The notes under the pieces are model-generated. The model worked only from the letters and a program-made list of their open reading frames with translations, was not told where the DNA came from and searched no databases. DNA of 64,000 nt from Myxococcales bacterium (GTDB lineage: Bacteria > Myxococcota > Myxococcia > Myxococcales > Myxococcaceae). This document shows positions 3,520 to 36,428 of the stretch, in pieces. A program made the translations under genes and the position numbers. The stretch's first letter is position 1; every line of letters starts with the position of its first letter. The stretch lies in the NCBI GenBank assembly GCA_016191815.1, contig JACPVI010000062.1:1-64000 (forward strand), read 5' to 3'.

Positions 3520-4527
3520 TCACTCCGCCAGGGCGTGTACCGCGGCGAAGACACCCTCCACCACCAAGCCCATCCGCCGGTAGTCGAGCCGGTCGGCGGT
3601 GTCGTCCGCGGTGTGGTACCGCTCGTTCCGGTAGAAGGCGGTGTCGGTGATCATCACTGCGGGGAACCCGGCGTTCCAGTAGCTCGCGTGGTCCGAAAGG
3701 TCGATCCCCGGCACCAGCCTGGGCGCGTTGATGGAGTGCGCCGGAAGCGTCGAGGCGGCCCGCATCGCGCGCTTCACCTGACGGACCAGCGAGGCCTGGC
3801 CCAGGTTTCCCACCACCGCGATGAAGTTCCCCTCGCTCGGGTAGAAGAGCGAGAGCACGCGGGCCGGGAAGCGCTGGCTCCCTCGCGCGTCGTCGAAACA
3901 GCCGATCATCTCCAGCGAGAGCATCGCTCGGACCCGCACTCCCTCGCGGATGAGCGCCGAGGCGTGGGTGGCGCTGCCCATCATCCGGGTGCGGAAGAAG
4001 GGCGGCTCCTCGAGCGAGTACGCCACCAGCTCCACCTGAATCGGCGGGGGATGGGCGGCGAGCAGCCGCGCCAGCTCCAGGAGGCCGGCCACGCCGCTCG
4101 CGTTGTCGTCGGCGCCGGGCAGCGGCCCGGCCGAGTCGTAGTGCGCGCCCACCACCACCCGCTCGGGGGTCGCCGGCCCGAGGAGGGTCCGCACGTTGCG
4201 GAACGCACGGCCCTGGACCTCGAAGGTCTGCTCGGAGACCTCCGCCCCGGCGCCCTCCAGCCGCTGGCGGATGTACCCGGCCACGCGGTCCAGGTTCTCC
4301 GGGTGGAGGTAGTCGCGCGGGCCCAGCTCCTCGGACAGCGCGCGGACGTGCGAGCGGAGCGCCTGCTCGTCGGGGTGGACCTTGGGGCCGGGGCGGGACC
4401 GCGAGGTGACCGGCTGGATCATGAAGCAGGCCGCGGCCGCCACGAGGAAGGCGAGCCCGAGCAGGGCGAGAAGCACGATGCGAGACCTCCGGCTGCGGAG
4501 GGGCGCCATCGCGCGAGCATGCCTCAA
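3520..4527 (-). CDS. M28-family zinc aminopeptidase, membrane-anchored
   Basis: 335 residues with an N-terminal hydrophobic segment (IVLLALLGLAFLVAAAACF) that is either a signal anchor or an uncleaved leader. The metal ligands of the M28 fold are visible: GAHYDS, GADDNASG, an EE pair in YSLEEPPF, a later LEMIG and the C-terminal YHTADDT. The length fits the catalytic domain alone. It should release N-terminal residues from peptides outside the cytoplasm. It leads the sigma/anti-sigma/CpxP-like run; the stop lies upstream of or inside the sigma gene depending on the sigma start. Confidence 0.88.
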   Translation of the reverse strand: MRHARAMAPLRSRRSRIVLLALLGLAFLVAAAACFMIQPVTSRSRPGPKVHPDEQALRSHVRALSEELGPRDYLHPENLDRVAGYIRQRLEGAGAEVSEQTFEVQGRAFRNVRTLLGPATPERVVVGAHYDSAGPLPGADDNASGVAGLLELARLLAAHPPPIQVELVAYSLEEPPFFRTRMMGSATHASALIREGVRVRAMLSLEMIGCFDDARGSQRFPARVLSLFYPSEGNFIAVVGNLGQASLVRQVKRAMRAASTLPAHSINAPRLVPGIDLSDHASYWNAGFPAVMITDTAFYRNERYHTADDTADRLDYRRMGLVVEGVFAAVHALAE

Positions 4528-17051: not shown

Positions 17052-18455
17052 TCAGCCTCGCCGTGCCCCGGCGGCGGCGTACAGGTCCTCCAGTGAATGC
17101 CAGCGAGGCCTCCTCACACCTCGCGGCAATTGGCGGAGAAAGAATCGGCGCCCCAGAGTGTGATTCCGCGGATTCGGATACGCCAGGACCTTCCGCTCGA
17201 GCTCGGTGGTCAGGCCGGATGGAGACCTGACCGAGCCCCACTTGCACTCGCCCAGCTCAGTCCAACCGTCGTCCCGCATCCCCACCACATCGATCTGCAC
17301 CTCCTTGTCCCAGTACTCACCCACCCTCACTGATGCCTCCACTCCTTCTTGGGCGAGCAGCTTGGGGAGCGCCTCGCGGCAGAGCCGCTCGAAGCAGGAG
17401 CCGAAGTAGGATTCCAGATTCGGCCTCAAAAGCTCCTGGAAGGCGTGGCGCGGCCCGTGCTGCTGCACGAAGCTCTGGTTGGGGAAGACGAAGCGGAACC
17501 AGAAGCGAAGGAGCGGATCCTCCAGCGAGAAGCGCACGTGGCGCTTGGCCTCCCGCTCGCCGGTGAGCGGGAAGCGGCGGGCGACGTACCCGAGCTGAAC
17601 CAACTGCTCGAGGTAGTAGTGGAGGCTTCGTTCGGGCAGCCCCGAGACGCGGGCAATCTCGCGGCCGGAGCCCAAGTTCTGCGCGATCGCCAGCAGTACC
17701 GCGTGGTAGCCGGTGACGTCGCGTAGCTCCTCGCGCAGGAGGAATTCCGGCTCGCGGAAGAGCGGGGCGAACTCCGTCAAGAGGTTCGCCTCGATGTTGG
17801 CGGTGAGGGATTTTTCCGGCGCGAAGGCGAGCAGGTACTGCGGCACCCCTCCCACGATGAAATAGGCGCCGGCCCGCTGCGGCAAGGACCAGGAGCGATG
17901 GAACCGGGCGGCCTCCGAGTAGCTCAGGGGCTGGAGGTGAATCTGGGCGGTCCTCCGGCCGAAGAGGGGGCTCTGCCGGCCGAGGATTTCTCGTTCCATG
18001 AAGCCGATGAAGGAGCCGCAGAGAATCAGGAGCACCTTGCCGGACCGTTTCCACCGGCGATCCCACAGCTCCTGCAAGAGCGAGGGAAGCTCGGGAGAGG
18101 CGCCGGCCGTCCACTGGAACTCGTCGAACGCCAGCACCAGCTTGCCCGGGCGCTTCCAGTGCGGCTCCAGCTGATCGAGCGCGGTCCGCCAGCTGTCGGC
18201 CGGCAAGGCGGCCAAGAGGGGCTGTTTGAGCTCGCGGGCCGCCTCGGCAAGGAACTCGCGGAGCTGCAAGGCGGCGGGAGCGACCTTGCCCACGTGGTAG
18301 ATCCCTGGGCGCTTGCGCATGAAATGGAGGATGAGCTCGCTCTTCCCGACGCGCCGGCGTCCATAGAGGGGGATGAATGCCGCCGCGGGGGACGCCCAAG
18401 CCTCCTCGAGGAGGGCGATCTCGCGCTCCCGGCCGACGAACCGATCTCCGCTCAT
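17052..18455 (-). CDS. archaeal-type AAA ATPase with C-terminal nuclease-like (DUF234) domain
   Basis: 467 residues. Near the N-terminus FVGREREIALLEEA is followed by the Walker A YGRRRVGKSELI, and Walker B is LVLAFDEFQW. The middle holds a winged-helix segment (AIAQNLGSGREIARVSGLPE). The C-terminal part carries DKEVQIDVVGMRDDGWTELG and ECKWG, a PD-(D/E)xK-like arrangement as in the DUF234 partner domain. The family is common in archaea and patchy in bacteria, with functions unproven. Three 15-bp repeats sit directly before the start, so autoregulation is plausible. Confidence 0.85.
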   Translation of the reverse strand: MSGDRFVGREREIALLEEAWASPAAAFIPLYGRRRVGKSELILHFMRKRPGIYHVGKVAPAALQLREFLAEAARELKQPLLAALPADSWRTALDQLEPHWKRPGKLVLAFDEFQWTAGASPELPSLLQELWDRRWKRSGKVLLILCGSFIGFMEREILGRQSPLFGRRTAQIHLQPLSYSEAARFHRSWSLPQRAGAYFIVGGVPQYLLAFAPEKSLTANIEANLLTEFAPLFREPEFLLREELRDVTGYHAVLLAIAQNLGSGREIARVSGLPERSLHYYLEQLVQLGYVARRFPLTGEREAKRHVRFSLEDPLLRFWFRFVFPNQSFVQQHGPRHAFQELLRPNLESYFGSCFERLCREALPKLLAQEGVEASVRVGEYWDKEVQIDVVGMRDDGWTELGECKWGSVRSPSGLTTELERKVLAYPNPRNHTLGRRFFLRQLPRGVRRPRWHSLEDLYAAAGARRG

Positions 18456-18458
18456 GTC

Positions 18459-18503
18459 GCAAGACTCGACTCGTCAAGTCGTAACTTGTCAAGGTTAAAC
18501 TTG
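18459..18503 (-). promoter_or_regulatory. three tandem 15-bp pseudo-palindromic repeats before the ATPase start
   Basis: On the plus strand the units are gCAAGACTCGACTCG, tCAAGTCGTAACTTG and tCAAGGTTAAACTTG, in perfect 15-base register. The last two are dyads of the form CAAG-N6-CTTG. On the minus strand a TTGACA hexamer lies across a junction and could be a -35 element. They end 3 bases before the ATG, so a bound protein would block both transcription and initiation. Confidence 0.65.
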
Positions 18504-18599
18504 CTGTTCGGTGGGCGGTGGTGGATCGACGGACGACCGGCGCCTTTGCTGGGGGATTCGCAGCCGCTAGAATTCAGGGCACGTCTCAAGGGGGTTGCC

Positions 18600-19451
18600 A
18601 TGTTGAAGGTGAGAGGCAATCGAAGTGCGCGTCAGGTAAGCGGCCGCGAGGGCGCCAAGGAGAGGCCCGGCTCGCCGGCGGCGGAGAAGCCCGGAGGATG
18701 GATTCCCAGGCCGCGGCTTCGGCAGAGGCCGGTGGAGGCGCTGGTGAGCCATCTGTCCTCGAAGCTGGACCGGGCGCTCTCGTTCCTCGACCCCTCCGGG
18801 CCGAAGCCCATCACCCTCACCGGGGTGACCGACCGGCATTTCGCGGAGATGGAGGGGAAGGTGGCGTCGCTGGAGGCGGGCGAGCGGCCGCTGACGGCGA
18901 AGGAGAAGGCGGCGCTCGCACAGGGGAAGGTGTTGAGCGAGGCCAGCCGGCGCGCGGACGGCTCGGTGGAGGAGCGGACCATCGGGGTGGTGGACCTCCC
19001 GCTCGAGCGCTTCCTTAAGAAGGTGCCCGCGAAGGATTGGGGCCGGCACCTGGCGGACTACAAGGGCGGAGAGGTTCGGGAGGCGGGTCCGGGGCGTCAG
19101 GTGGAGCGGATGGTGCTGGGGGCGCCCGGGAAGGATCTGGACATGACGAAGGTGGAGACGGTGCGCGAGGAGCGGGACTCGAGCGGGCGGATCTCCGCGG
19201 CGCGGGTGCGCTGGGAGGTGCTGAAGTCGGACAACGGCTCGGTGGCGAAGGACATCGGGACCGTGCGCTTCGAGCGGTTCGGGGAGAAGACGCTGGTGAC
19301 TTGGCACTCGGCTCACGATCTCGCGGTGGCGCCCTTTTCGAGCCCGGTGCTCCCCGGAGCGGTGAAGGACGCGCTGCTCGGCGCGACGCTCTCCGGCTAC
19401 TTCAGCCGGGCGATCGAGCACTACCGCGCGGAGGCCGGCGCCGGAAGCTAG
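18600..19451 (+). CDS. SRPBCC-like protein of unknown function with basic N-terminal tail
   Basis: 283 residues from the ATG at 18600 (AAGGGGG 5 bases upstream). The first ~45 residues are basic and disordered-looking (Arg/Pro/Gly-rich) with no signal peptide. The remainder resembles a START/SRPBCC ligand-binding fold: repeated strands such as RVRWEVLKSDNGSVAKDIGT, then TLVTWHSAHDLAVAP, ending in a long helix (GYFSRAIEHYRAEAG). The family call is by shape only. It is convergent with the MFS gene. Confidence 0.7.
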   Translation: MLKVRGNRSARQVSGREGAKERPGSPAAEKPGGWIPRPRLRQRPVEALVSHLSSKLDRALSFLDPSGPKPITLTGVTDRHFAEMEGKVASLEAGERPLTAKEKAALAQGKVLSEASRRADGSVEERTIGVVDLPLERFLKKVPAKDWGRHLADYKGGEVREAGPGRQVERMVLGAPGKDLDMTKVETVREERDSSGRISAARVRWEVLKSDNGSVAKDIGTVRFERFGEKTLVTWHSAHDLAVAPFSSPVLPGAVKDALLGATLSGYFSRAIEHYRAEAGAGS

Positions 19452-25367: not shown

Positions 25368-28300
25368 ATGGTGCGCTCGCGTTTCCTCCTGCTCCTCGCC
25401 TTGTCGCTCGCCGGCTGCGAGTGCGGCCGAAAAGCCCAGGTCAGCGAGCGGTTCGCGGAGATCGGCATCCCGTGGACCGATCCCGACGGCGCGGAGGTGG
25501 TGAACCGCGACGCCACCTTCGACTTCGGCATGGCCCTGGTGGGCGACCGGGTGGCGCGGAAGCTCATCGTCCGAAACGTCGGCTCCGGGCCGCTCACCCT
25601 CGTCTCGCTCGAGAGAGTGGAGGGAGACCCGGTGACGATCGCCGACGCCAGCGAGATGGGCTCGGCGTTCGAAGTCCGCTTCGCGCCGGGCAGCAGCCTG
25701 GCTCCGCTCGAAGAGGCGGCGTTCGACATGGTCTTCACGCCCACCCGGCCGGCCGAGGCGGGCCTCGACCACTACGCCCGGCTGCTCCTGAAAGGCGGCG
25801 GCACCAGGCCCGGGGAGGGAGAGGCCACCATCGTCCTCAAGGGAAGCTCCGGCTCCAGCACCTGCCAGCTCCCCAAGCTCCTCGACTTCGGGAAGGTCGC
25901 CTCCGGCGCGTTCGCCGAGCTTCCCTACGACGTGCCCAATCAGACCGCGCTTCCCGCCACCGGAGCGGCTGGCGAGCCCACCTCGGCGACTGGAGATCAT
26001 CAGGCATTCACCTTCGCCGCCTCCTCGCCCAGGGGCAGCTTCCCCGTCCCGCCCAACGGCGCCACCCGGCTCACCTTCCGCTTCTCCCCCACCGAGGTCC
26101 GCGCCTACCAGGCGGCGGTGAAGGTGCGCGCGGCGGCGGGTTGTCCCGAGGTGGAAGTGACCCTCGAGGGCGAAGGCGTGGACACCGTGCTGAGCTGGAC
26201 TCCCTCGCAGCTCGACTTCGGCGCGGTGGGCCTGAGCAAGCTCTACACGCGGGAGCTGACCTTCTTCAATGCCGGCGCGACTCCTTTGAAGCTGACCCAA
26301 CTCGCCACCACCATGGCCAGCGACTTCGGAGTGGTGGCCGGCCCCGGCGGAAACCCCTCCGAGCTGGAGATTCCTCCCGGCTCGGTCCCCACTCCGCTCA
26401 CCGTGGGCTGCCGGCCTTCTTCGCTTGGGCCCCGCACCGCCCAGCTCACCTTCCAGACCGGCATCGCCAAGCAGCCCTCCGGCTCGGTGGGCCTCAAGTG
26501 CTACGGCGGCGGGCCGAAGATCAGCGTCATGCCCAGGCCCACGCTCGCCTTCGGCAAGGTCGGATATTTCGCCAACACCACCCCGCCCGCGTCAGTGGTG
26601 CGAAAGCTCACCGTGATGAACGTGGGCGCGCGGCCGAACCCGCCGGATCCGAACGTCAACCTCCGGCTCGGCTCGGTCGGCCCCAAAGGGCCCGGGCAGC
26701 TTCCCTATCTCGCCCTCACCCCGCAAAACGCCAGCACCGCGCCCGGAGAGTTCAGCGTGGGGATTCCTTCCTCCTACGATCCGGCGGTCGGGCTGGAAGC
26801 GACGGTGGGGAAGAACCTCGTGGACCTGGTGGTCACCCTCACTCCCGCTTCGCTCGGCGCCAAGGAGGCGGAGGTGACCATCTTCTCCAACGACCCCGAC
26901 GAGCCGCAGGTGAAGATCCGCCTCACCGCCGACGCGGTGCAGGTGCCTCCCTGCCGCTACTCGGTGAGCCCGGCCCAGCTCAACTTCGGCCTGGTGACGC
27001 CGCCCAGCTTCAAGGAGCTTCCGGTGGTCATCCGCAACCTGAGCCAGACCGCCGGAGACATCTGCCTCGTCTCGGGAGTGGACCTCTCCTCGAGCACCGA
27101 CCCGGCCTACAGCCTCATCGGCGGACCGGTCCCCTCGAGGGAGCTTCAGCCGAACGAGTCCTGGCAGCTCACGGTCAAGGTCTGGCCGCAGGGCCCCCAG
27201 CCCCAGACCACGGTGAGCCTGCTCGGGCACTTGCAGTTCAGCATCTCCTCGCCCCAAAGCCCGCAAGGCTCGGTGCCGCTCATCACCGCGGTCGGGCCCT
27301 CCTGCCTGACCATCGCTCCCGACAAGCTCGACTTCGGGACGGTGAAGAAGGGCTGCAACTCCTCGACGAAGACGTTCAGCATCTACAACACCTGCACGCA
27401 GAACGTGACCATCACCTCCTTCGCGATGCAGGCGGGGGCGGGCCAGATTGCGGGCGGCCCCGACTGCCCAGGCACCCAGCCCTGCCCGGAGTTCCATCTC
27501 GTCTCCACTCCGGCCATCTTTGGCTCGGGGCTCACCCTGCAGCCCGGCGCCTCGCCCGTCACCTTCCAGGCCAAGTACTCGCCGATCGACATGGGCGCCG
27601 ACTCGGGCGCGGTGGCGATCAACGCCATCCAGGGAGGGCAGAACGTCGTCTACCTGGTGACGCTGCAGGGCAAAGGAGACGCCACCGGGCTGCACACCGA
27701 CGTCTTCACCCAGAGCGCCAAGCCCGAGGCGGACATCCTGCTCACCATCGACAACTCCTGCTCGATGGGCGACGAGCAGAGCTCGCTCGCCAACAACTTC
27801 GCCGCCTTCATCCAGTACGCCAACTCCACCAACGCCGACTACCACCTCGGCGTCACCACCACCGACGACGACGAGCCGATGCAGACCCCGCTCGGCCCGA
27901 TGGGCGGCGGCGAGCGCGGGAGGCTCTTGGGCGACGCCAACAACCCCAAGGTCCTCACCCCCACCACCCCGGACGTGGAGAACAAGTTCAAGGCCAAGGT
28001 GAAGGTGGGCACCAACGGCAGCGCCAGCGAGACCGGGATTTCTCCTTCGCTCAAGGCGGTCACCGCGCCGCTGGTGACTGCCGACAACGCCGGCTTCCTC
28101 CGCTTCAACGCCTACCTCGCGGTGGTGGTGGTGACCGACGCCATCGATCAGGACCCCAAGCCGGTGAGCTACTTCTACAACCAGTTCCTCAACGTGAAGG
28201 GGGTCAACCGAGCCAACCTCTTCACCTTCAACGTGATCGGCCCCTTCGATCCCAACCCGCCCACCGGGTGCTCCTACGACGGCTCCTCCGACGACGGCCG

Positions 28301-28598
28301 CTACGCCCAGATGGTGAGCCTCACCAACGGCGTCCGGGAGGAGATCTGCAACGCCAACTGGGCCCAGAAGCTCCAGGACCTCGGCAAGGTGGCCTTCGGC
28401 TACCGCACCAGCTTCTTCCTCAACTCCACGCCCGACCAGAGCGGCGGGAAGACCATCGAGGTGAAGGTGAACGGAGTGGTGGTGCCGAGCACTGACTGGA
28501 CCTACGACCCGGTGGCCAACGCGATCGTCTTCAACGCCGGGAAGGCGCCCGGGGCGGGACAGACTCTGTCGGTGAGCTACACCGTGGCCTGCCTCTGA
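25368..28598 (+). CDS. large lipoprotein with choice-of-anchor-D repeats and a VWA-like domain
   Basis: 1076 residues. Lipobox LSLAGC places the lipidated Cys at 17. Several immunoglobulin-like ASH/choice-of-anchor-D modules follow (recurring LDFGxVxxG: LLDFGKVASG, LDFGAVGL, LAFGKVGYF, LNFGLVTP, LDFGTVKKG). Near residue 794 TIDNSCSM supplies a VWA MIDAS DxSxS motif in a ~180-residue von Willebrand A-like domain. The C-terminal module is a strand-rich domain. The protein should be on the cell surface or in the envelope and bind other proteins in a metal-dependent way. Chosen start: the ATG at 25368, giving the signal peptide. Confidence 0.88.
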   Translation: MVRSRFLLLLALSLAGCECGRKAQVSERFAEIGIPWTDPDGAEVVNRDATFDFGMALVGDRVARKLIVRNVGSGPLTLVSLERVEGDPVTIADASEMGSAFEVRFAPGSSLAPLEEAAFDMVFTPTRPAEAGLDHYARLLLKGGGTRPGEGEATIVLKGSSGSSTCQLPKLLDFGKVASGAFAELPYDVPNQTALPATGAAGEPTSATGDHQAFTFAASSPRGSFPVPPNGATRLTFRFSPTEVRAYQAAVKVRAAAGCPEVEVTLEGEGVDTVLSWTPSQLDFGAVGLSKLYTRELTFFNAGATPLKLTQLATTMASDFGVVAGPGGNPSELEIPPGSVPTPLTVGCRPSSLGPRTAQLTFQTGIAKQPSGSVGLKCYGGGPKISVMPRPTLAFGKVGYFANTTPPASVVRKLTVMNVGARPNPPDPNVNLRLGSVGPKGPGQLPYLALTPQNASTAPGEFSVGIPSSYDPAVGLEATVGKNLVDLVVTLTPASLGAKEAEVTIFSNDPDEPQVKIRLTADAVQVPPCRYSVSPAQLNFGLVTPPSFKELPVVIRNLSQTAGDICLVSGVDLSSSTDPAYSLIGGPVPSRELQPNESWQLTVKVWPQGPQPQTTVSLLGHLQFSISSPQSPQGSVPLITAVGPSCLTIAPDKLDFGTVKKGCNSSTKTFSIYNTCTQNVTITSFAMQAGAGQIAGGPDCPGTQPCPEFHLVSTPAIFGSGLTLQPGASPVTFQAKYSPIDMGADSGAVAINAIQGGQNVVYLVTLQGKGDATGLHTDVFTQSAKPEADILLTIDNSCSMGDEQSSLANNFAAFIQYANSTNADYHLGVTTTDDDEPMQTPLGPMGGGERGRLLGDANNPKVLTPTTPDVENKFKAKVKVGTNGSASETGISPSLKAVTAPLVTADNAGFLRFNAYLAVVVVTDAIDQDPKPVSYFYNQFLNVKGVNRANLFTFNVIGPFDPNPPTGCSYDGSSDDGRYAQMVSLTNGVREEICNANWAQKLQDLGKVAFGYRTSFFLNSTPDQSGGKTIEVKVNGVVVPSTDWTYDPVANAIVFNAGKAPGAGQTLSVSYTVACL

Positions 28599-28680
28599 CC
28601 GCTTTGGGCCCGTTGGCGGCGGGCGGGTTGCAGGCCGAAAGCGCCGCGTGGTCCAATGCCGCTGTTCGCAGGGGGACGTC

Positions 28681-30714
28681 ATGCCGAGAATCACCGAAGC
28701 CACCTCCGTCAAGGCGCGAGAGCTCGCCGAGTACATCGACACCAAGTACGGCAACCGCTCGGGAGTCCTCTCGCGGCCGGAGGCCAACCGCGCCTTGGCC
28801 GCGGTGGTCAACGATCCGGTGCTGAAGGCGAAGATGCAGGATCTCTTCGCGACCACGCCGCAGAAGGCGTCGGAGCTCATCCGGGCGCTCTTCACCCCGG
28901 CCCCGCCCGCTCTGACGGGCGAGGGCATCTCGGTGGGGAATCGGGCCGGCGGCCCGGGCGCGATCTTCCTGCAGCCGGACGGCAGCTTCTCCATCGGGCC
29001 GAGGCCGCAGGGCCAAGGGCCGATCGCCTCCGCGCCGGCGCTGTACGAGGGGGCGCTCTTGGTGGCCGAGGGGAAGAACCCCTTCGCCTCCGCTTCCGCG
29101 GCGGTGAGGGCGCGCTCAGCGGTGTCGCTCGAGGCGAGCGCCAAGCTCGGAGCGGAGCGCGCCGCCGGCGAGCCCACCGCTTCGGAGACCACCATGCAGC
29201 TCAAGTCGGGCTCGGCCACCGCGCTGTTGGCGCTCGCCGAAGCCGCCTCCGCTCCCGAGGAGGCCGCGGTCCGGCAGAAGGCGATGGGCCTCTACCTGGA
29301 CATCGCCGAGAAGGAGATCCACCGCGGGCTCCGCACCTCGATGGCGCTGAACCTCGACGCGGTGAAGGCGAACCTGGGGCTGACCACCGAGCAGGTGGGC
29401 CGGCTGGACGCCTTGGTGAAGAAGGCGCTCCCCGACCAGCCTCCGTACGAGGAGTGGTTCAAGAACGGCAACGACACCATCAAGGTCAAGCACTATGTCC
29501 ACGAGGAGTTCTACGACCAGCTCATCCAGCCCTACATCCAGCGCGGCTTCACCCGCACCACCCTGGCGCCGGGCCGCGAGCTGTTCGAGGGCACCCTGAA
29601 GGACCCGGCCGGCCGCGCCCCGGACACCAAGTTCCGGGTGGAGATCTTCAAGGTCGAGGACTACTCCACCGACCGGCAGATGCTCCGGGACATGAACGAC
29701 CCGGAGGTGCAGGTGGAGATGTACACCGGGCACTCCAACCTGGGCGGCAACATCTCGATGGCGCTGAGGGCGGCGCCGAAGACCGAGCTGGGCACCAAGC
29801 TGGTGCAGCTCGGCATGTGCCGCGGGAAGCAGAACGTGGCGGAGTTCACCAACCGCTTCCCCAACGCGCACCTGGTCACCACCTCGGCGCCGGAGTACGG
29901 CTACGGCATCAACATGATGACCAGCGCGCTCTTGGAGATGATCGCCGCCCGGAAGGGCTACGACTCCATCAAGGACCGCACCCGCTCTCCGGGCGACTAC
30001 CTGGTGCCCAACGACCGGCGGCTGTACGACCACCGGGACCTGGACGTGGACGGGCGCATCGACGGCGGGGGGAGGATGGACAAGGTGTTCGACATCTACC
30101 CGCGGGCGGCGCGCGGCTCGAAGGTGGACTTCCGGCCGGGCGAGTCGGTGGATCCGGCGAAGCTCGACGGCACCTCGGTGGTGAACGCGCTCGCCTTCTC
30201 CAACACCCTGCTCACCTACCACGTGGAGCACGGCGACGGCCGCTCGCCCATCACCGGGGCGTTCACCGACAAGATGATCGCCGACGGCTACTACAAGTCG
30301 GAGGGCGACGAGTTCATGCGGGTGACTCCGGAGACGGTGAACGGCGCCACCCAGTACCGGGTGGCGATCAACTCCAAGCACGCCGGCCAGTCCGAGGACG
30401 TGCTGGGGATGCGGGCCCTCTACGAGCTGAACCGCTACATCACCCAGCAGCGCGGGGCGCCCAGCCTGGACGACAAGCTCCGGGGGATGCTGCTGGCATC
30501 CGAGTGGATCGCCTACATGGTCGGCCCCGGACGCCAGGCGGACGAGCTGGTCCGCAACATGGGCCGCACCTACGGCTGGCCGCCTTCGGTGACGCACTCC
30601 CAGCTCGCCTCCGCCCTCGAGCGCGACCGGCACGGGTACGTCTCGATGGACTCGGTCACCGCCCTCAAGCAGGCGCTCGGGCCCGAGCTGGGCGACGGCT
30701 CGAACATCCAGTAG
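28681..30714 (+). CDS. leaderless protein with predicted caspase-like (clan CD) fold
   Basis: 677 residues with no signal peptide. Residues ~1-75 are helical (NRSGVLSRPEANRALAAVV), followed by a Pro-rich linker. The central region reads VQVEMYTGHSNLGG (His351), then, after a helix, LVQLGMCRGKQNV (Cys380), then AHLVTTSAPEYGYG. Strand-H-G and strand-C-R-G at this spacing (29 residues; gingipain has 33) is the His/Cys dyad layout of clan CD peptidases. The C-terminal ~200 residues are unrecognised and include an EF-hand-like DLDVDGRIDGGG. Function as a peptidase is inferred from the pattern only. Confidence 0.72.
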   Translation: MPRITEATSVKARELAEYIDTKYGNRSGVLSRPEANRALAAVVNDPVLKAKMQDLFATTPQKASELIRALFTPAPPALTGEGISVGNRAGGPGAIFLQPDGSFSIGPRPQGQGPIASAPALYEGALLVAEGKNPFASASAAVRARSAVSLEASAKLGAERAAGEPTASETTMQLKSGSATALLALAEAASAPEEAAVRQKAMGLYLDIAEKEIHRGLRTSMALNLDAVKANLGLTTEQVGRLDALVKKALPDQPPYEEWFKNGNDTIKVKHYVHEEFYDQLIQPYIQRGFTRTTLAPGRELFEGTLKDPAGRAPDTKFRVEIFKVEDYSTDRQMLRDMNDPEVQVEMYTGHSNLGGNISMALRAAPKTELGTKLVQLGMCRGKQNVAEFTNRFPNAHLVTTSAPEYGYGINMMTSALLEMIAARKGYDSIKDRTRSPGDYLVPNDRRLYDHRDLDVDGRIDGGGRMDKVFDIYPRAARGSKVDFRPGESVDPAKLDGTSVVNALAFSNTLLTYHVEHGDGRSPITGAFTDKMIADGYYKSEGDEFMRVTPETVNGATQYRVAINSKHAGQSEDVLGMRALYELNRYITQQRGAPSLDDKLRGMLLASEWIAYMVGPGRQADELVRNMGRTYGWPPSVTHSQLASALERDRHGYVSMDSVTALKQALGPELGDGSNIQ

Positions 30715-30743
30715 CGAGGCCGGCTCACTGTGCTGACACCACC

Positions 30744-31919
30744 CTAGGGAAGGTTGGCCAAAAGGCGCGAGGCGGCGATGACCCGCACCTCGGTGCGGCC
30801 CAGATCGGGCAAGCGGCGCTCCCGCACGTTCCGCAGCACGACCTGGAGGGCGAACGGCGGCCGGGCGCGCTCGATGAAGTAGCGCAGGCTGGGGGCGAGA
30901 TCATCGTCGGTCAGCTTGGTCTCGATCGCGAGCCAGAGCTTGCCGCCTCGCAGCACGACGAAGTCGACTTCGCCCCCCTCGCGGCGGCGGAAGAAGCGCA
31001 GCGCGAGTTTCTCGCCCTCCACGTCGGCAGCCCAGTCCACCGCGCGGAGCAGGTGCATCGCGACCAGGTTCTCGAAACGTGCTCCCTCGGTGGCGCACCG
31101 GGCCCAGTCCCAGAAGTAGAGCTTCTGTTCCTTCTTCACCGCCTTGATGCGCGGCGGCCCGTACGGCGGGACCCGGAAGACAGCGTCAAGCCGCTCGAGG
31201 ATCGCGAGCCACGAGCGCACGGTCTCGAAGGAGACTTCAAGGTCCTCTCGCAGGCTATTGATCGAGAGCAGGCCCCCGGCCACCTCGCCGAGCTGGTCGT
31301 AGAGGAGTTCCAGACGCTCTATCTCCCGCACCCTTTCGAGCGAGGCGATCTCCTCCCGGACCAGGCGCTCGCCATACGCCAACCGCCAACGGGCCGCCTC
31401 GCGCTCGGAGCCCGAGAGCAGGGGCTCCGGAAAGCCGCCCAGGCGCAGGAGGTCGTCGAGGGACCTCCGTGCCGGATCCGTGGGGAGGCGCGGGAGGTCG
31501 CCGACCGCCCGAAAAGGCAGACCGTGCAGCTCCGAGAAGGTGATCGGGTGCAGATGGTGCCCGTAGTAGCGCCCCTGCAGCGAGTCACCGCCGCGCCCGT
31601 AAAGCTCGAGCCGCGCGCTGCCGGTGACGAGGATTCGTTTCCGGCGGCCGTAGGAATCGGAGAGGTCCTTGAGAAACGCGCGCCAGCGCCTGAACTTGTG
31701 CAGCTCATCGAACACCCATAGGGCGCGATCGAAGTCCAGCGCCCGCTTCTGAATGGCGAGCCGATCGGGGGCAGCGTCCCAGTTGTAGTAGGCGCCGTCG
31801 CCCTCGGCGGCGAGCGCCCGAACGAGGACCGTCTTGCCGCACTGCCGCGGCCCCGAGAGCAACACCATCTTCCGGCTCAGGTCGGAAGGCAGCACCTCGC
31901 TGAGGCGGCGAGAGATCAT
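30744..31919 (-). CDS. AAA_14/DUF4143 ATPase
   Basis: 391 residues. Walker A is LLSGPRQCGKTVLV; Walker B is LWVFDELHKF, followed by an arginine-sensor region (ILVTGSARLELY). The C-terminal DUF4143 portion contains GARFENLVAMHLL and GGEVDFVVLRGGKLWLAIET, a nuclease-like ExK segment. This family is widespread and mobile-element associated, without a settled role. A 64-bp inverted repeat lies immediately before the ATG. It converges with the caspase-like gene. Confidence 0.88.
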   Translation of the reverse strand: MISRRLSEVLPSDLSRKMVLLSGPRQCGKTVLVRALAAEGDGAYYNWDAAPDRLAIQKRALDFDRALWVFDELHKFRRWRAFLKDLSDSYGRRKRILVTGSARLELYGRGGDSLQGRYYGHHLHPITFSELHGLPFRAVGDLPRLPTDPARRSLDDLLRLGGFPEPLLSGSEREAARWRLAYGERLVREEIASLERVREIERLELLYDQLGEVAGGLLSINSLREDLEVSFETVRSWLAILERLDAVFRVPPYGPPRIKAVKKEQKLYFWDWARCATEGARFENLVAMHLLRAVDWAADVEGEKLALRFFRRREGGEVDFVVLRGGKLWLAIETKLTDDDLAPSLRYFIERARPPFALQVVLRNVRERRLPDLGRTEVRVIAASRLLANLP

Positions 31920-31920
31920 G

Positions 31921-31988
31921 CTGGACAATCTTAGACCAAACTCTGATTCTGTCCGGACAAGGTTAGAGTTTGGTCCAAATATGTCCAA
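31921..31988 (-). promoter_or_regulatory. 68-bp imperfect palindrome before the DUF4143 ATPase gene
   Basis: All arms share one axis at 31954/31955: the central TGTCCGGACA (31950-31959), GACCAAACTCT (31934-31944) against its complement (31965-31975), and GGACA (31923-31927) against TGTCC (31982-31986). Each half follows TGGACA-N3-TT-N-GACCAAACTCT. The region is AT-richer than its surroundings. On the minus strand, TTGGAC and TAACCT 17 bases apart could be -35/-10. It ends 1 base before the start codon, so a repressor site that also hides the start is likely. Confidence 0.65.
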
Positions 31989-32017
31989 AGGGTTCGCGTG
32001 GGGCGTGAGGCGCGGCG

Positions 32018-33040
32018 TCAGCCGAGCTTGGCCGCGCCGCTGCCTCCGCACTCGCAGAATCCCCTCCCTTTGAGCGCACGCTCCCTCCCGCCGCGCGCCG
32101 TCCAGCCGGCTTCGAAATCGAAGCCCAAGAAACCGCCTCCCGGCGCCACCGGGGCGATGGGCGTCGCCGCCCTTGCCTCGTAGCGGAGCGCTCCGCGCCG
32201 GCTGTTCACCGTACCGCGCCAGCGCCTGGGGTAGGTCGCCGCTCCCTCCGAGGCCAGCTCCAGATACTCCACGGCGCCCGAGGGCGACGCGGCCTCCGCC
32301 TCGGGCAGGCGGCCGCGGGAACGGATCACCCGCCAGCCCAACACAGGCAGCCGGATGGACAGCACCATCAACGCGGCGGTGTCCCCCTCGAAGACGAGCA
32401 CGTCCCAGTGCCAGCGCTCGGGCGCGCGCCGCGCCGGATCGAACGGCACCCGTCCGCCGAAGGCGTGCTCCACCATGCCCAGGCCGGACGACGCCACTGA
32501 CTCGCCGCCGATGCCAAAGGCGCCTCGCGCCGCTCCGAACGCGCCGCCGTAGGAGAGCAGCCCTCCCAGGCCGATCCATTTCACCGGCTCGCAGCCCAGA
32601 AGCTCCACTTCGAATCCGCAGCGCTCGCCACCGGCCGAGGCGAGCAGCCGCGAAGGCTCCTCGGAGAGCCGAAACCGCTCCGGTGCGGCGACTGACAGCG
32701 GTGATCGCTCGAATTCAGCCCGGCCCTCCACTTCGCTCGGGCCAATCGGCCCCGCCGGGGATGACGGCGCCTCGCGGGACGATTGCACCTCTCGCCGGTC
32801 CAGCTCGAAGCGGGCCCGGTGCACCGCGCCTTCCTCGGCGATCAAGGCCACCGCCTCGCCCGGGGCCACGAGCCCCTCCACCGCCGAGATGGGATGCCAT
32901 CCTGGAATCGGCCGCGAGAGGAACAGGTGAGACTTGGCCCAGCGCACCCGCCCGCCGCCGCCCACGAAGATGAAGAACCAGCCCTCCCACGCCGCCTCGG
33001 GACGCGGCGCCCCGAGCGCGGCGCCGTAGCCTCCGTTCAA
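32018..33040 (-). CDS. lipocalin-like/CrtC-like protein, unknown function
   Basis: 340 residues starting at a TTG (33040) that overlaps the GMC oxidoreductase stop as TTGA, with GAGAGG 5 bases upstream. It is strand-rich, with Trp/Gly elements such as EGWFFIFVGGGGRVRWAKSH and LGWRVIRSRG, like the double lipocalin fold of hydroxyneurosporene hydratase (CrtC) or AttH. It is third in an operon with an NAD(P)-epimerase and a GMC oxidoreductase, so a lipid, terpenoid or sterol-like substrate is plausible. Family assignment is tentative. Confidence 0.65.
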   Translation of the reverse strand: MNGGYGAALGAPRPEAAWEGWFFIFVGGGGRVRWAKSHLFLSRPIPGWHPISAVEGLVAPGEAVALIAEEGAVHRARFELDRREVQSSREAPSSPAGPIGPSEVEGRAEFERSPLSVAAPERFRLSEEPSRLLASAGGERCGFEVELLGCEPVKWIGLGGLLSYGGAFGAARGAFGIGGESVASSGLGMVEHAFGGRVPFDPARRAPERWHWDVLVFEGDTAALMVLSIRLPVLGWRVIRSRGRLPEAEAASPSGAVEYLELASEGAATYPRRWRGTVNSRRGALRYEARAATPIAPVAPGGGFLGFDFEAGWTARGGRERALKGRGFCECGGSGAAKLG

Positions 33041-35388
33041 GCAAGCCTCTCGGAGATGAGCCGGGCGGCCCGGTCGGCGAAGGCCATGATGGTGACCTGC
33101 GGATTGACCGCGGTCGGCCCGGGGAGCGCGCTGCCGTCCACGATGAACAGCCGCTCCACCTCGTGCGACTGGTGGTCCAGCCCCACCACGCTCTTCTTCG
33201 GATCGGTCCCCATCCGGCAGGTGCCGAGCGGGTGGAAGCTCGTGGCGAAGAAGTCCCAGGCCCGAAGGTTCGCCTCGGAGAGCCGCTTCAACCCCTCCCT
33301 GCCCTCCAGCTCCGGCATCCTTTGCAGGAGCGGGAACAGCTTCTTCGCGCCGGCGGCGAGGAAGATCTCGCCGATGTGCGCCATTCCCTGCTGCAACCGC
33401 TCCACGTCCCGCTTGGAGAGGAAGTAGGTGATCGCCGGCGAGCCGTCGGGCCTTGGCCGCACCCGGCCCCGGCCCTCGTCCTCCACCATCACCCCGAAGG
33501 AGGCGATCCGGTCGTAGGCCTCCATCACCTCCATCAGCCGCTTCCCGGTGAAGGGGAACATGTTGGCGGCGACGTCGATCGGCGCGGAGGCCCCGAGGAG
33601 CAGCATCCCCTCGCGGTGGAACTGATCGCAGCAGTAGCCCTGGGGAATCGCGTTGTACCCGGCGATCCGCTCCTCGAAGAGCGCCGACACCGCGGTGGCC
33701 GGGTGCAAGGAGAGGTTCCTCCCCACCTGCCCGCTCTGGCTGCACAGCCCCTGCTTGAGCAAGAGGAGCGGAGTGGGAATGGCGCCTCCCGCCAGCACCA
33801 CCGCCTGGGCGCGCACCGTGAGATGGCCGCCGCCCGCGGTCCTTGCTTCCACGCCCACCGCGCGCCCTCCCTCCAGGAGCACTTTCTCGGCGCGAGAGCC
33901 GGTGCAGAGCTGCGCCCCTCGCTCGAGCGCCCTCGGCACGTAGGAGAGGTTGGTGCTCTTGCGCGCGTCGGTCGGGCAGCCGAAGTCGCACACCCCCTGG
34001 CCGTCGCAGCCCGGGGCGTTTCGGAGCAAGGGGAAGTGGCTCCAGCCCAAGGCATCGCAGCCGCGCGCCACCACCTTCGCCGCGCCGCCGAGGGCGTCCC
34101 ACTTGGCGCGCTCCACCTCCAGCTCCCGCTCCACCCGCTCGAAGTGGGGATCGAGCTTTTCGCGCGCCAGCTCGCCGGTGCCCAAGTCCTCGCACCAGCG
34201 CGAGAGCACCCACTCGGGGGTCCGGAAGCAGGTGCCGGTGTTCACCGCGGTCGAGCCGCCCACCATCCGGCCCATCAGCACCGGGACGATGCCGTTGCCC
34301 ACCGCGAGGCTGCCTTTGAGGCGGTAGAAGCGGCCGTGCGTGCCGCGGGCGCGGCCGATGAAGGCGTCGCGGCGGTAGTGCTCGCCCTCCTCGAGGAGGA
34401 GCACCGCGTGCCCCCGCTCGGCCAGTTCCTTCCCCACCACCGCCCCGCCCGCGCCGGTGCCCACCACCACCACCTCGCACTCCAAGGTCTCGTCAGAGGT
34501 GATCGATCGGCCGGGCCGCACCTGCGAGAGCCACCTCGCCGGCTCGGGCTTGCCACCCTTGGCGTAAGTGGCGCCGAGGGAGGCGTAGATCTCCGGGTCG
34601 TCGAAGTGCGCCGCCTTCACCGCGAAGGCGAAGAGGAAGAGCGGGAGGCGGATCAACGGATCCCGCTCCCAGCGCCGGAGCAGCGCCTGCTGCTTCTCCG
34701 GCTCGAGCGCGCGGAAGCGGCGGCCGGTACGAAGCACCGCGGCGCGGTCCAGGAGCAGGGCCAGCGCACCGAGATATCCGGCAGCGGCGGGAGAGAACTC
34801 CGCCACCAGCTCGCAGGCCCGCTCCACCGTCTCCTCGCCGCCTCCCCGGAAGCGGCGACCGGGAGGGAGGATGGCCCGCGCGAGATGGGCAGACGCCTCC
34901 CGCTCGTCGGGGCCGAGCTGCCTCCGCAAAGTGGAGGAAACTTCGGCAAGCCGGAAGCTCCCCAAGAGCGGCCCGAGCTGGCGGCGAAGGTCGAAGCGCG
35001 CCTTCACCTTGCCCACGCTCGCTCCACTCCCCTCCTCGAACACCTCGCCGTCCAACGTGGTCCAGCTCGTGAGCGGCCGCAGCCAGCGGATTTGCTTCTG
35101 GCCCTCGAACCGGTAGCGGCGCCCATCCAAGCCGGGGAAGCGAAGGGCGTAGCGCACCACCCGCTTGGAGAAGGGCGCCAATTCCAAGGTGCCCTCGGCG
35201 GGCGCGTCCTCGGCGACCCCGGCCATGGTGAGCTTCCCTTGGCACTGGCCGACGATCTCCTCGAGCGGCCGGGACACCTCGAGGCAGTTCACCGAAACGT
35301 CGAAGTGGAACGGCAGCTCTCTTTGGCCGGCGCGCTCATGAGTGCCGGCCATCTGCTCGCGGAAGAAGAAAGCGGGAAAGAGGTTCAT
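33037..35388 (-). CDS. GMC-type FAD oxidoreductase with ~300-residue N-terminal extension
   Basis: 783 residues. The FAD-binding Rossmann motif CEVVVVGTGAGGAVVGKE starts near residue 305, and GRMVGGSTAVNTGT, GCPTDARKSTN and the C-terminal SFHPLGTCRMGT and NPQVTIMAFADRAA follow, as in cholesterol-oxidase-like and long-chain-alcohol GMC enzymes. The N-terminal extension has no known domain but includes a beta-rich first part (FHFDVSVNCLEVSRPLEEIV). The ATG at 35388 overlaps the epimerase stop (ATGA). It should oxidise an alcohol or steroid-like hydroxyl. Confidence 0.88.
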   Translation of the reverse strand: MNLFPAFFFREQMAGTHERAGQRELPFHFDVSVNCLEVSRPLEEIVGQCQGKLTMAGVAEDAPAEGTLELAPFSKRVVRYALRFPGLDGRRYRFEGQKQIRWLRPLTSWTTLDGEVFEEGSGASVGKVKARFDLRRQLGPLLGSFRLAEVSSTLRRQLGPDEREASAHLARAILPPGRRFRGGGEETVERACELVAEFSPAAAGYLGALALLLDRAAVLRTGRRFRALEPEKQQALLRRWERDPLIRLPLFLFAFAVKAAHFDDPEIYASLGATYAKGGKPEPARWLSQVRPGRSITSDETLECEVVVVGTGAGGAVVGKELAERGHAVLLLEEGEHYRRDAFIGRARGTHGRFYRLKGSLAVGNGIVPVLMGRMVGGSTAVNTGTCFRTPEWVLSRWCEDLGTGELAREKLDPHFERVERELEVERAKWDALGGAAKVVARGCDALGWSHFPLLRNAPGCDGQGVCDFGCPTDARKSTNLSYVPRALERGAQLCTGSRAEKVLLEGGRAVGVEARTAGGGHLTVRAQAVVLAGGAIPTPLLLLKQGLCSQSGQVGRNLSLHPATAVSALFEERIAGYNAIPQGYCCDQFHREGMLLLGASAPIDVAANMFPFTGKRLMEVMEAYDRIASFGVMVEDEGRGRVRPRPDGSPAITYFLSKRDVERLQQGMAHIGEIFLAAGAKKLFPLLQRMPELEGREGLKRLSEANLRAWDFFATSFHPLGTCRMGTDPKKSVVGLDHQSHEVERLFIVDGSALPGPTAVNPQVTIMAFADRAARLISERLA

Positions 35389-36428
35389 GCGAGGGCTCCA
35401 AGGACAGTCTCGAGAGCGGCCCTTCCCTGCTCGGTGCGGGGCCGGAAGCGGCGGCCTCCCTCGGGGTCGAAGGCAACCAGGGTGCGCGCGAGGGCCAGCT
35501 CGAAGTCGGTGGGGCTCCAGCCCAGCTCCCGCCGCGCGCGCTCGGAGGAGAACATCCACGAGCGGCCCTCGGCCATCGCCAGGCCGTCTTTCAGGGTGTC
35601 GGGCGCCATCTTGAACAGCGGCGCGAAGAGGGGGAAGGCCGCCGCGGCGGCGCGGATCAGCCCGCGCGGGAGCTGCCGGCGCGGAGGCTCGATGCCGGTG
35701 ATGTCGGCCATCTTCTCCAGCCACTCGCCCACGCGGAGCACCCGGTCGGCGAAGATGTACTCGCCGCCCATCGCGCCTCGAAAGGCGGCGAGCTGGAGCC
35801 CGGCGGCGCAGTCGTCCACCAGCACCATGCTCAGGGCGAGGTCCGAGAAGGCCCTGAAGCGGATCCGCCCGCGGAGGTGGGCCTGCACCGCGGTGGCCAC
35901 CAGGCTCTTGTCCCCCGGGCCAAAGATGGTGCCGGGGAGAGCGATCCGCACCGGGGCCCCTTCCCGGGCGAGCTCGCGGGCGACCTCATGCGATTCGAAC
36001 TTGGTGCGCTCGTAGGCGGAGGCGAAATCCCCCGGGTGCCGATGGCCCTCGTCCACCAGCTTCCCGCCAGTGGAGCCGAGCGCGGCCACCGAGCTGGTGT
36101 GCACGATGGAGCGGGCGCCGGCCTCCGCGGCGACCTCCAAGACGTTCCTGGTGCCCTCGACGTTGATCCGCCGCATCCGCTCCAGGTCCCGCACCCCCAA
36201 CTCGTACCACGCCGCCACGTGGAAGACGGTGTCCACATGGGCCATCGGCTCCCTCAGGCTGGCCCGGTCCACGACGTCACCCACTGCGATCCGCACCCCA
36301 TTCCGCGAGAGCGCGGAGGCGTCGCTCGTCTTGCGAGCGAGCGCGATCACCTCATGACGCTCCGCGGCGAGGCGCGCCGCGAGGGCGCCTCCCAAGAAAC
36401 CCGTTCCTCCCGTGAGGAAGATCCGCAC
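35385..36428 (-). CDS. NAD(P)-dependent epimerase/dehydratase (extended SDR)
   Basis: 347 residues. TGGTGFLGGALAARLA is the nucleotide-binding glycine motif; HTSSVAALGS supplies Ser and YERTK the YxxxK catalytic pair. The length and GPGD motif (FGPGDKSLV) fit extended SDRs such as dihydroflavonol reductase or 3-beta-hydroxysteroid dehydrogenase-like enzymes. It is first in an operon with the GMC oxidoreductase, which would act on the same sort of hydroxyl. The 172 bases upstream separate it from the divergent NlpC/P60 gene. Confidence 0.9.
   Translation of the reverse strand: MRIFLTGGTGFLGGALAARLAAERHEVIALARKTSDASALSRNGVRIAVGDVVDRASLREPMAHVDTVFHVAAWYELGVRDLERMRRINVEGTRNVLEVAAEAGARSIVHTSSVAALGSTGGKLVDEGHRHPGDFASAYERTKFESHEVARELAREGAPVRIALPGTIFGPGDKSLVATAVQAHLRGRIRFRAFSDLALSMVLVDDCAAGLQLAAFRGAMGGEYIFADRVLRVGEWLEKMADITGIEPPRRQLPRGLIRAAAAAFPLFAPLFKMAPDTLKDGLAMAEGRSWMFSSERARRELGWSPTDFELALARTLVAFDPEGGRRFRPRTEQGRAALETVLGALA

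Follow-up and report, generated by a model that had tools for sequence, protein, structure and literature searches.

The gene for an AAA_14-DUF4143 ATPase in the window, as the whole stretch of 64,000 nucleotides analyzed here is called, is preceded by a 66-bp palindrome that is confirmed as a real element. Many DUF4143 relatives across bacteria carry a differently spelled site in this position. These common candidate anti-phage proteins may therefore each control their own gene. The palindrome is probably a private DNA operator lying over a leaderless promoter, where the product of the adjoining gene would bind, repress the transcription initiation events starting from this site, and be released by a trigger. 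The positions of the gene, of the domains of its product, and of the proposed regulatory features are listed in Table 1.

Table 1. Positions of the ATPase gene, its domains and the upstream elements in the window
Feature	Position	Strand	Remark
AAA_14-DUF4143 ATPase gene, 391 aa, P0001, PADLOC PDC-S01 match	30744..31919	(-)	
C-terminal domain resembling PD-(D/E)XK, residues 278-388, with E317, D319, E333, K335	30756..31088	(-)	named after PMC12988326 and the conserved residues
Winged-helix-like region, residues 200-269; helix 231-243 possible recognition helix	31113..31322	(-)	our reading of the AlphaFold2 secondary structure
NTPase domain AAA_14 (residues 16-131) with Walker A motif GPRQCGKT and, in Walker B, D71 E72	31527..31874	(-)	
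Proposed operator with dyad symmetry, upstream of the ATPase gene	31922..31987	(-)	66 bp
Unit 2 (32 bp), proximal to the ATG, gene-strand sequence GGACA-N22-TGTCC	31923..31954	(-)	
Candidate -10 hexamer TAAGAT, differing from TATAAT at 2 positions, with its 5' end 14 nt ahead of the ATG	31928..31933	(-)	read from the sequence; position agrees with the clade enrichment at 12-16 nt
Unit 1 (32 bp), distal to the ATG, gene-strand sequence GGACA-N22-TGTCC	31955..31986	(-)	

The axis of the palindrome lies between positions 31954 and 31955. Outer arms TGGACA and TGTCCA (31922-31927 and 31982-31987) enclose middle arms GACCAAACTCT and AGAGTTTGGTC (31934-31944 and 31965-31975), and both pairs are arranged around the center TGTCCGGACA (31950-31959). 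The nested palindrome with three pairs of arms on one axis, as described in the first-pass annotation, is thus present at this place. Its estimate of about 70% matching positions agrees with the 25 of 34 symmetric pairs counted over 31921-31988, and the palindrome is AT-richer than its surroundings, as had been claimed, with a GC content of 43% vs. 69% for the window. The same annotation gave a size of 68 bp and let the palindrome touch the start codon. Place and symmetry held, but the outermost 2 bases of 31921-31988 were unpaired, so that the true extent is 66 bp, and 2 bp separate the element from the downstream ATG at 31919 on the minus strand, which means that it adjoins the start codon and does not touch it. 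With a scoring of +1 for a match and -1 for a mismatch, the palindrome reached 17 and was the top dyad of the 64 kb, followed by a runner-up with 13. When the local 110 bp were shuffled 2,000 times with the dinucleotide composition kept, the highest score obtained was 10.

The gene-strand sequence of the element, GGACATATTTGGACCAAACTCTAACCTTGTCC and then GGACAGAATCAGAGTTTGGTCTAAGATTGTCC, consists of two tandem 32-bp units with GGACA and TGTCC at their ends and with identical letters at 20 of 32 positions. This direct-repeat reading (2 x 32 bp) was absent from the earlier description. The identity at lag 32 is the highest in the window, unequaled at any other of the 63,936 positions. The element is thus a direct repeat and an inverted repeat at the same time. 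Inside each of the two units, 9 of the 16 dyad pairs match, so that the 16-bp dyads are weak at this locus.

The same spacing characterizes the upstream regions of the 79 members of the clade of the window gene. Their excess self-identity at lag 32 was 0.140 (z 16.5), while all other lags from 5 to 60 yielded an excess of 0.03 at most, and control stretches from the same loci gave -0.013 and -0.024. Lag 32 was the best lag in 40 of the 79 clade members vs. 16 of 130 other DUF4143 genes. The clade loci also showed an excess of second dyads at a distance of exactly 16 bp from the best one (0.206, z 13.1; control, -0.009), with a smaller peak of the dyad spacing at 32 bp (0.053). A recurrent spelling in the clade, as judged by eye, is of the type TCAAAAATACTCGCGAGT-TTTTTGAC followed by ACCTGTC. 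The clade pattern can be described as a lattice in one dimension that repeats every 32 bp, or about three helical turns. Upstream of six other loci (L014, L025, L045, L193, L195, and L205), the palindromes are replaced by tandem direct repeats of 22-23 bp, about two turns.

Start-site palindromes were surveyed in 209 non-duplicate bacterial DUF4143 genes, composed of 67 genes from the source genome and its relatives (set 1), 79 of 80 window-clade loci, which were the best 80 of 541 GTDB relatives (set 2), and 63 genes from 24 genomes (set 3). The best ungapped palindrome in the region from -150 to -40 of the Walker A codons was scored and compared to 200 dinucleotide shuffles. Left out were loci in which the Walker A motif was not found in frame (L016, L028, L029, L036, L038, L073, L078, L137, L185, L206, and L215), those in which the upstream sequence was too short (L034, L069, L072, and the second gene in L013), and duplicates (L007, L207, L208, L216, and L243). 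Palindromes with p<=0.01 occurred in 35 of 67, 38 of 79, and 25 of 63 genes of sets 1 to 3, respectively, in total 98 of 209 vs. 9 of 239 starts of neighboring open reading frames; here, sets 1 and 2 had been collected by similarity to the window protein, the rows are non-independent draws, and the control reading frames were scored in the 110 nt before a mechanically assigned start, so that some control starts may not be real. A score of at least 12 was reached by 60 of 209 family genes vs. 2 of 239 neighboring starts. AT-rich control windows from the same loci contributed 7 of 201 and 9 of 237 cases at p 0.01, and all control windows of set 3, with 100 shuffles each, 21 of 981 at this level and 8 of 981 with a score of at least 12. 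More than half of the family genes, 111 of 209, failed the palindrome test at p 0.01; some of these possess direct repeats and others are without a visible element.

The excess of start-site palindromes lends good support, for the DUF4143 family, to the "large operator" that had been one of the options for the palindrome, with a protein presumably binding to it. It also bears on the suggestion that such ATPase genes have a control site of their own, made because a second orphan ATPase gene is present in the window: this part is well supported for the DUF4143 genes by the 98 of 209 vs. 9 of 239 palindromes, with no more than a hint for that second gene, of the DUF234 type, at 18455.

When the DNA of the element was searched for in the source genome (6.77 Mb, 89 contigs, 98.8% complete), the hits were limited to the site in question and its reverse copy, with no second copy elsewhere. 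A pattern of the half-site matched exclusively the two arms of the element across this genome, no further half-site with up to one mismatch was present in 29501-33500, and no copy was found at the 3' side of the gene. The site is single-copy in the source genome, so that the objection raised in the first-pass annotation, a half-site dispersed over unrelated loci, fails. This also disfavors a dispersed repeat or the terminal repeat of a mobile element as candidates. The possibility of non-conservation fails too, because the element was kept in relatives with 77% and 72% protein identity (L079 and L080), the closest among those found. The islands GGACA, CTCT, GTC/GGACA, and AGAGT are common to the window and both relatives, and the upstream flank differs. 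When both loci were compared by blastn and tblastn (open reading frames of at least 120 aa) to the region 28000-36000 of the window, the family gene alone aligned, plus a second family gene in the case of L080, and no neighboring genes common to the window and these two loci were found. An inherited feature of the locus is disfavored since only the family gene or genes align, and an insertion or recombination remnant, another of the earlier options, is not supported, given the lack of a second copy in the source genome and an element that travels with its gene between unrelated neighborhoods. In L080, a second family gene follows the 72% orthologue and has its own 32-bp dyad, GATCGTATTTTGGTCTAGACCGAACTACGATC (region 3677-3800).

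Paralogues within one genome provide a further view of the relationship between gene and site. The ten DUF4143 matches in the source genome represent nine genes by our count. A start dyad with a score of at least 9 was present in five of the eight paralogues examined, L003 to L007, with L007 being the window gene, and each of the five has another spelling; such a dyad was not seen at L001, L002, and L008. A decayed paralogue of the clade on contig C46 of the same genome (L078, 701-1100; 42% identity) has kept a 64-bp element with the halves CGACC...TGGTCA and CGACC...TGGTCG, which is the 2 x 32-bp layout of the window with different letters. The distribution of the family is patchy: a match to the window protein occurred in 17 of 60 relatives of the source genome, and two relatives possess 17 and 18 matches.

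The most extensive case is a 2.3-Mb genome (G060; loci L081 and L209 to L242) with 43 DUF4143 matches, many of them with distinct start palindromes. Palindromes with p<=0.01 preceded 13 of the 27 genes scored. The palindrome at L209 has 49 bp and arms without any mismatch. In a slightly wider stretch, 19 palindromes of this genome shared a longest word with a median of 5 bases and at most 10 bases. Because these palindromes are so different, one common host factor is unlikely to be the reader of all of them. In another genome, G083, 3 of 11 genes passed the palindrome test.

The protein encoded downstream of the element can be compared to known domains and structures. Pfam listed AAA_14 (residues 16-131) and DUF4143 (189-336) over the cutoff and AAA_16 below the threshold, with no regulator-type helix-turn-helix family for the 391-aa protein. 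A separate small helix-turn-helix regulator of the R-M controller (C) type is rejected, since these three families are the only Pfam assignments of a protein of this size. The PADLOC profile PDLC04790 for PDC-S01 matched residues 2-364 (E 3.3e-51), the NCBIfam models gave no match, and a sequence search of the PDB gave no matching chain. In an alignment of 94 rows, G28, K29, D71, E72, E317, and E333 are invariant and D319 and K335 are conserved to at least 90%, and the protein has the combination by which PDC-S01 is recognized, AAA_14 plus DUF4143 with the NTPase and nuclease-like residues kept.

An AlphaFold2 model (mean pLDDT 94.2, pTM 0.93) predicted the winged-helix-like region 200-269 and a PD-(D/E)XK-like C terminus. 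The solved structures with the highest Z scores were those of the archaeal ATPases PABY2304 (2qen; Z 15.3, rmsd 5.3, 243 aligned residues) and Sso1545 (2fna; Z 14.8, rmsd 4.7, 242 aligned residues), which are the best structural matches over residues 1-276 and cover the NTPase and winged-helix parts only, with 17% identity. They were followed by plant NLRs with Z scores of 12.7-13.0, mostly within residues 1 to about 300, and the ranking of Foldseek itself was topped by RuvB and 2fna. Judged by these fold matches, the ATPase may be STAND-like, with a NACHT/NB-ARC-like NTPase domain followed by a winged helix. We know of no operators of the PABY2304 and Sso1545 genes.

With these data, a mechanism can be proposed. 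The operator would belong to the gene downstream of it and overlap the promoter of a probably leaderless mRNA. The gene product, with its STAND-like ATPase, winged-helix, and PD-(D/E)XK parts, would bind as dimers or as a larger oligomer on a phased lattice with dyads every 16 bp and a repeat every 32 bp, about three turns. In the bound state, it would repress its own transcription until a trigger, for instance, the ATP state or invading DNA, leads to its release. The own site spelling of each family member means that copies in one genome need not cross-regulate each other.

The product of the adjoining gene, which is always at hand, is the reader that we infer as the most likely one. The similarity of operators rises with that of the proteins (r 0.40-0.47). 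In a partial Mantel test of 94 proteins with phylogeny partly controlled, the correlations were 0.115 for the winged helix and 0.132 for the PD-(D/E)XK domain, both small and reached in 0 of 500 permutations, 0.132 for the recognition helix (1 of 500), -0.05 for the AAA domain, and 0.039 for the linker, so that the test did not single out the winged helix over the PD-(D/E)XK domain as the reader. Winged helices in STAND proteins are not known to read DNA sequence. A separate host regulator encoded elsewhere could read the operator instead, with the family gene as one of its targets; this would agree with a domain test that is not decisive and with the fact that binding by the gene's own product is a matter of inference. 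It is nevertheless unlikely, considering that the site is single in the source genome, that the sites at paralogues of one genome are unrelated, and that the element accompanies its gene across groups and neighborhoods.

The palindrome may alternatively act in the transcript, as a leader hairpin with the function of an attenuator or translation block, which corresponds to the "foldable leader" among the earlier options. Its arms could form a hairpin, and its position is right beside the start codon. In 109 palindromes with 1,880 pairs, the mismatches comprised 47 G-T, 38 A-C, and 114 others, which is no clear preference for a G-U wobble, and the loop length was zero in 21 of the 109. A Shine-Dalgarno-like word preceded 3 of 78 clade starts, the level of the shuffles (mean 3.7), vs. 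48 of 159 neighboring reading frames. In 24 of 78 clade members, TATAAT with up to one mismatch was located 12-16 nt ahead of the start (shuffle mean 5.4, maximum 12 in 200) vs. 12 of 159 neighbors. These two counts leave little room for a leader. A search of Rfam with 31700-32200 gave nothing at the gathering score, the best hit over the palindrome having 19.7 bits vs. the required 80, and direct-repeat versions of the element occur in the family. Taken together, these results make an RNA-level element quite improbable. The Shine-Dalgarno and -10 counts fit a lattice that would be situated over and upstream of the -10 region of a leaderless promoter.

A similarly small probability is assigned to the reading that the nuclease-like protein anchors at its site or cuts it for mobility, replication, or self-recognition, with gene control as a secondary matter. 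The conserved PD-(D/E)XK residues, the similarity of this domain, which tracks operator similarity as well as that of the winged helix does, and the patchy occurrence of the family in 17 of 60 relatives would suit such a role; a single copy and none found 3' of the gene would not, and in the family sets the element was always sought and found at the promoter, with a control role as the simplest account. Coincidence, or a terminator belonging to the gene upstream, the region of which is on the same strand, can hardly explain a site that is the best dyad of the window, is out of reach of 2,000 shuffles, has AT-rich arms, and is conserved next to a different upstream neighborhood.

The proposed operator read by its own gene product resembles the C-box operators of restriction-modification systems, which are, in passages of PMC4824078, likewise short tandem dyad sites inside the promoter of the gene of their own reader; leaderless mRNA is common there, and one controller is fused to an endonuclease. 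Tandem dyad sites beside their own start were found in the window and in the family, and the proposed circuit would by analogy work like a C-box circuit. C proteins are separate regulators of restriction-modification genes, whereas the presumed reader here, with 391 aa, combines an ATPase and a nuclease-like domain; unlike C-boxes, the sites form a 16/32-bp lattice with a spelling that differs per gene.

Binding of gene products to palindromes in their own promoter is also the mode of autoregulated toxin-antitoxin promoters. PADLOC lists the window match as a single-gene candidate.

The window protein matches the models for PDC-S01, a single-gene candidate phage defense in PADLOC. As given in passages of PMC12988326, PDC-S01 is an ATPase fused to a member of the PD-(D/E)XK group and the fourth most common defense across prokaryotes, with 29,494 bacterial and 9,986 archaeal detections, and experimental validation is pending for most PDC candidates. 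The string "palindrom" occurs 0 times in the text of this paper, and its passages contain nothing on an operator or the regulation of PDC-S01. In a part of PMC13356809, PDC-S01 is the most frequent individual locus of the rumen set. The texts consulted yielded nothing on what PDC-S01 binds or what restrains it, and no description of an operator of the DUF4143 family, of a per-gene spelling, or of a 16/32-bp lattice was found in literature that lay outside most subscription papers and bioRxiv.

A far-reaching and rather doubtful extension would be a self-addressed immune system, in which an oligomer on its private 16/32-bp address silences the gene and acts as a resting sentinel, invading DNA or ATP turnover leads to release, and address and reader diverge together, so that dozens of copies might coexist without cross-talk. 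The private addresses suggest how the 2.3-Mb genome with its 43 DUF4143 matches could avoid cross-talk. A DNA address per gene would be a ready-made ligand for each protein in electrophoretic mobility shift assays, footprinting, and structural work, and the matched pairs of readers and sites form a large natural set for studies on the evolution of DNA specificity.

A regulatory test of the proposed operator is offered by the induction of a Thermus thermophilus gene in the presence of a plasmid. TT_P0211, an AAA_14-DUF4143 protein with "HTH motifs," was 6.6-fold upregulated with the plasmid in an Argonaute-positive strain, as given in a section of PMC4406477, and this section makes no mention of an operator. 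As judged from its position on pTT27 and its motifs, without a cross-reference, TT_P0211 is probably TT_RS11170, the DUF4143 gene of strain HB27 at L184 (14854-16074, minus strand), which has a small palindrome TGAATGA-cta-TCATTCA 3 nt before the ATG. The top-scoring palindrome of HB27 is GC-rich, and the small one did not score best. On named plasmid records, 4 of 12 genes had a palindrome with p<=0.05 (Agrobacterium, Thermus SNM7-6, Runella slithyformis, and T. thermophilus HB27) and 8 did not; L275 was left unscored, with an annotated gene starting inside the domain.

The second orphan ATPase gene of the window (ATPase_2-DUF234; 17052-18455, minus strand) matched PDC-S27 (9.2e-55). It gave no upstream palindrome, its best dyad having a score of 7 and a position inside the gene, and a search for inverted repeats in 17700-18700 gave none at its start. 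For DUF234 genes, nine of 13 loci were tried and four were read, because five of the nine gave no Walker A motif by our pattern; the scores were 12 for L266, 9 for L256, and 8.5 for L259, with the window gene as the fourth. The relatives L256, with a clear dyad, and L266, with another one, have start-site palindromes, and the upstream region of the window gene (18456-18500) shares TTGACAAGTTA.GACTTG.CGAG with L256, as seen by eye. The operator habit may extend to PDC-S27.
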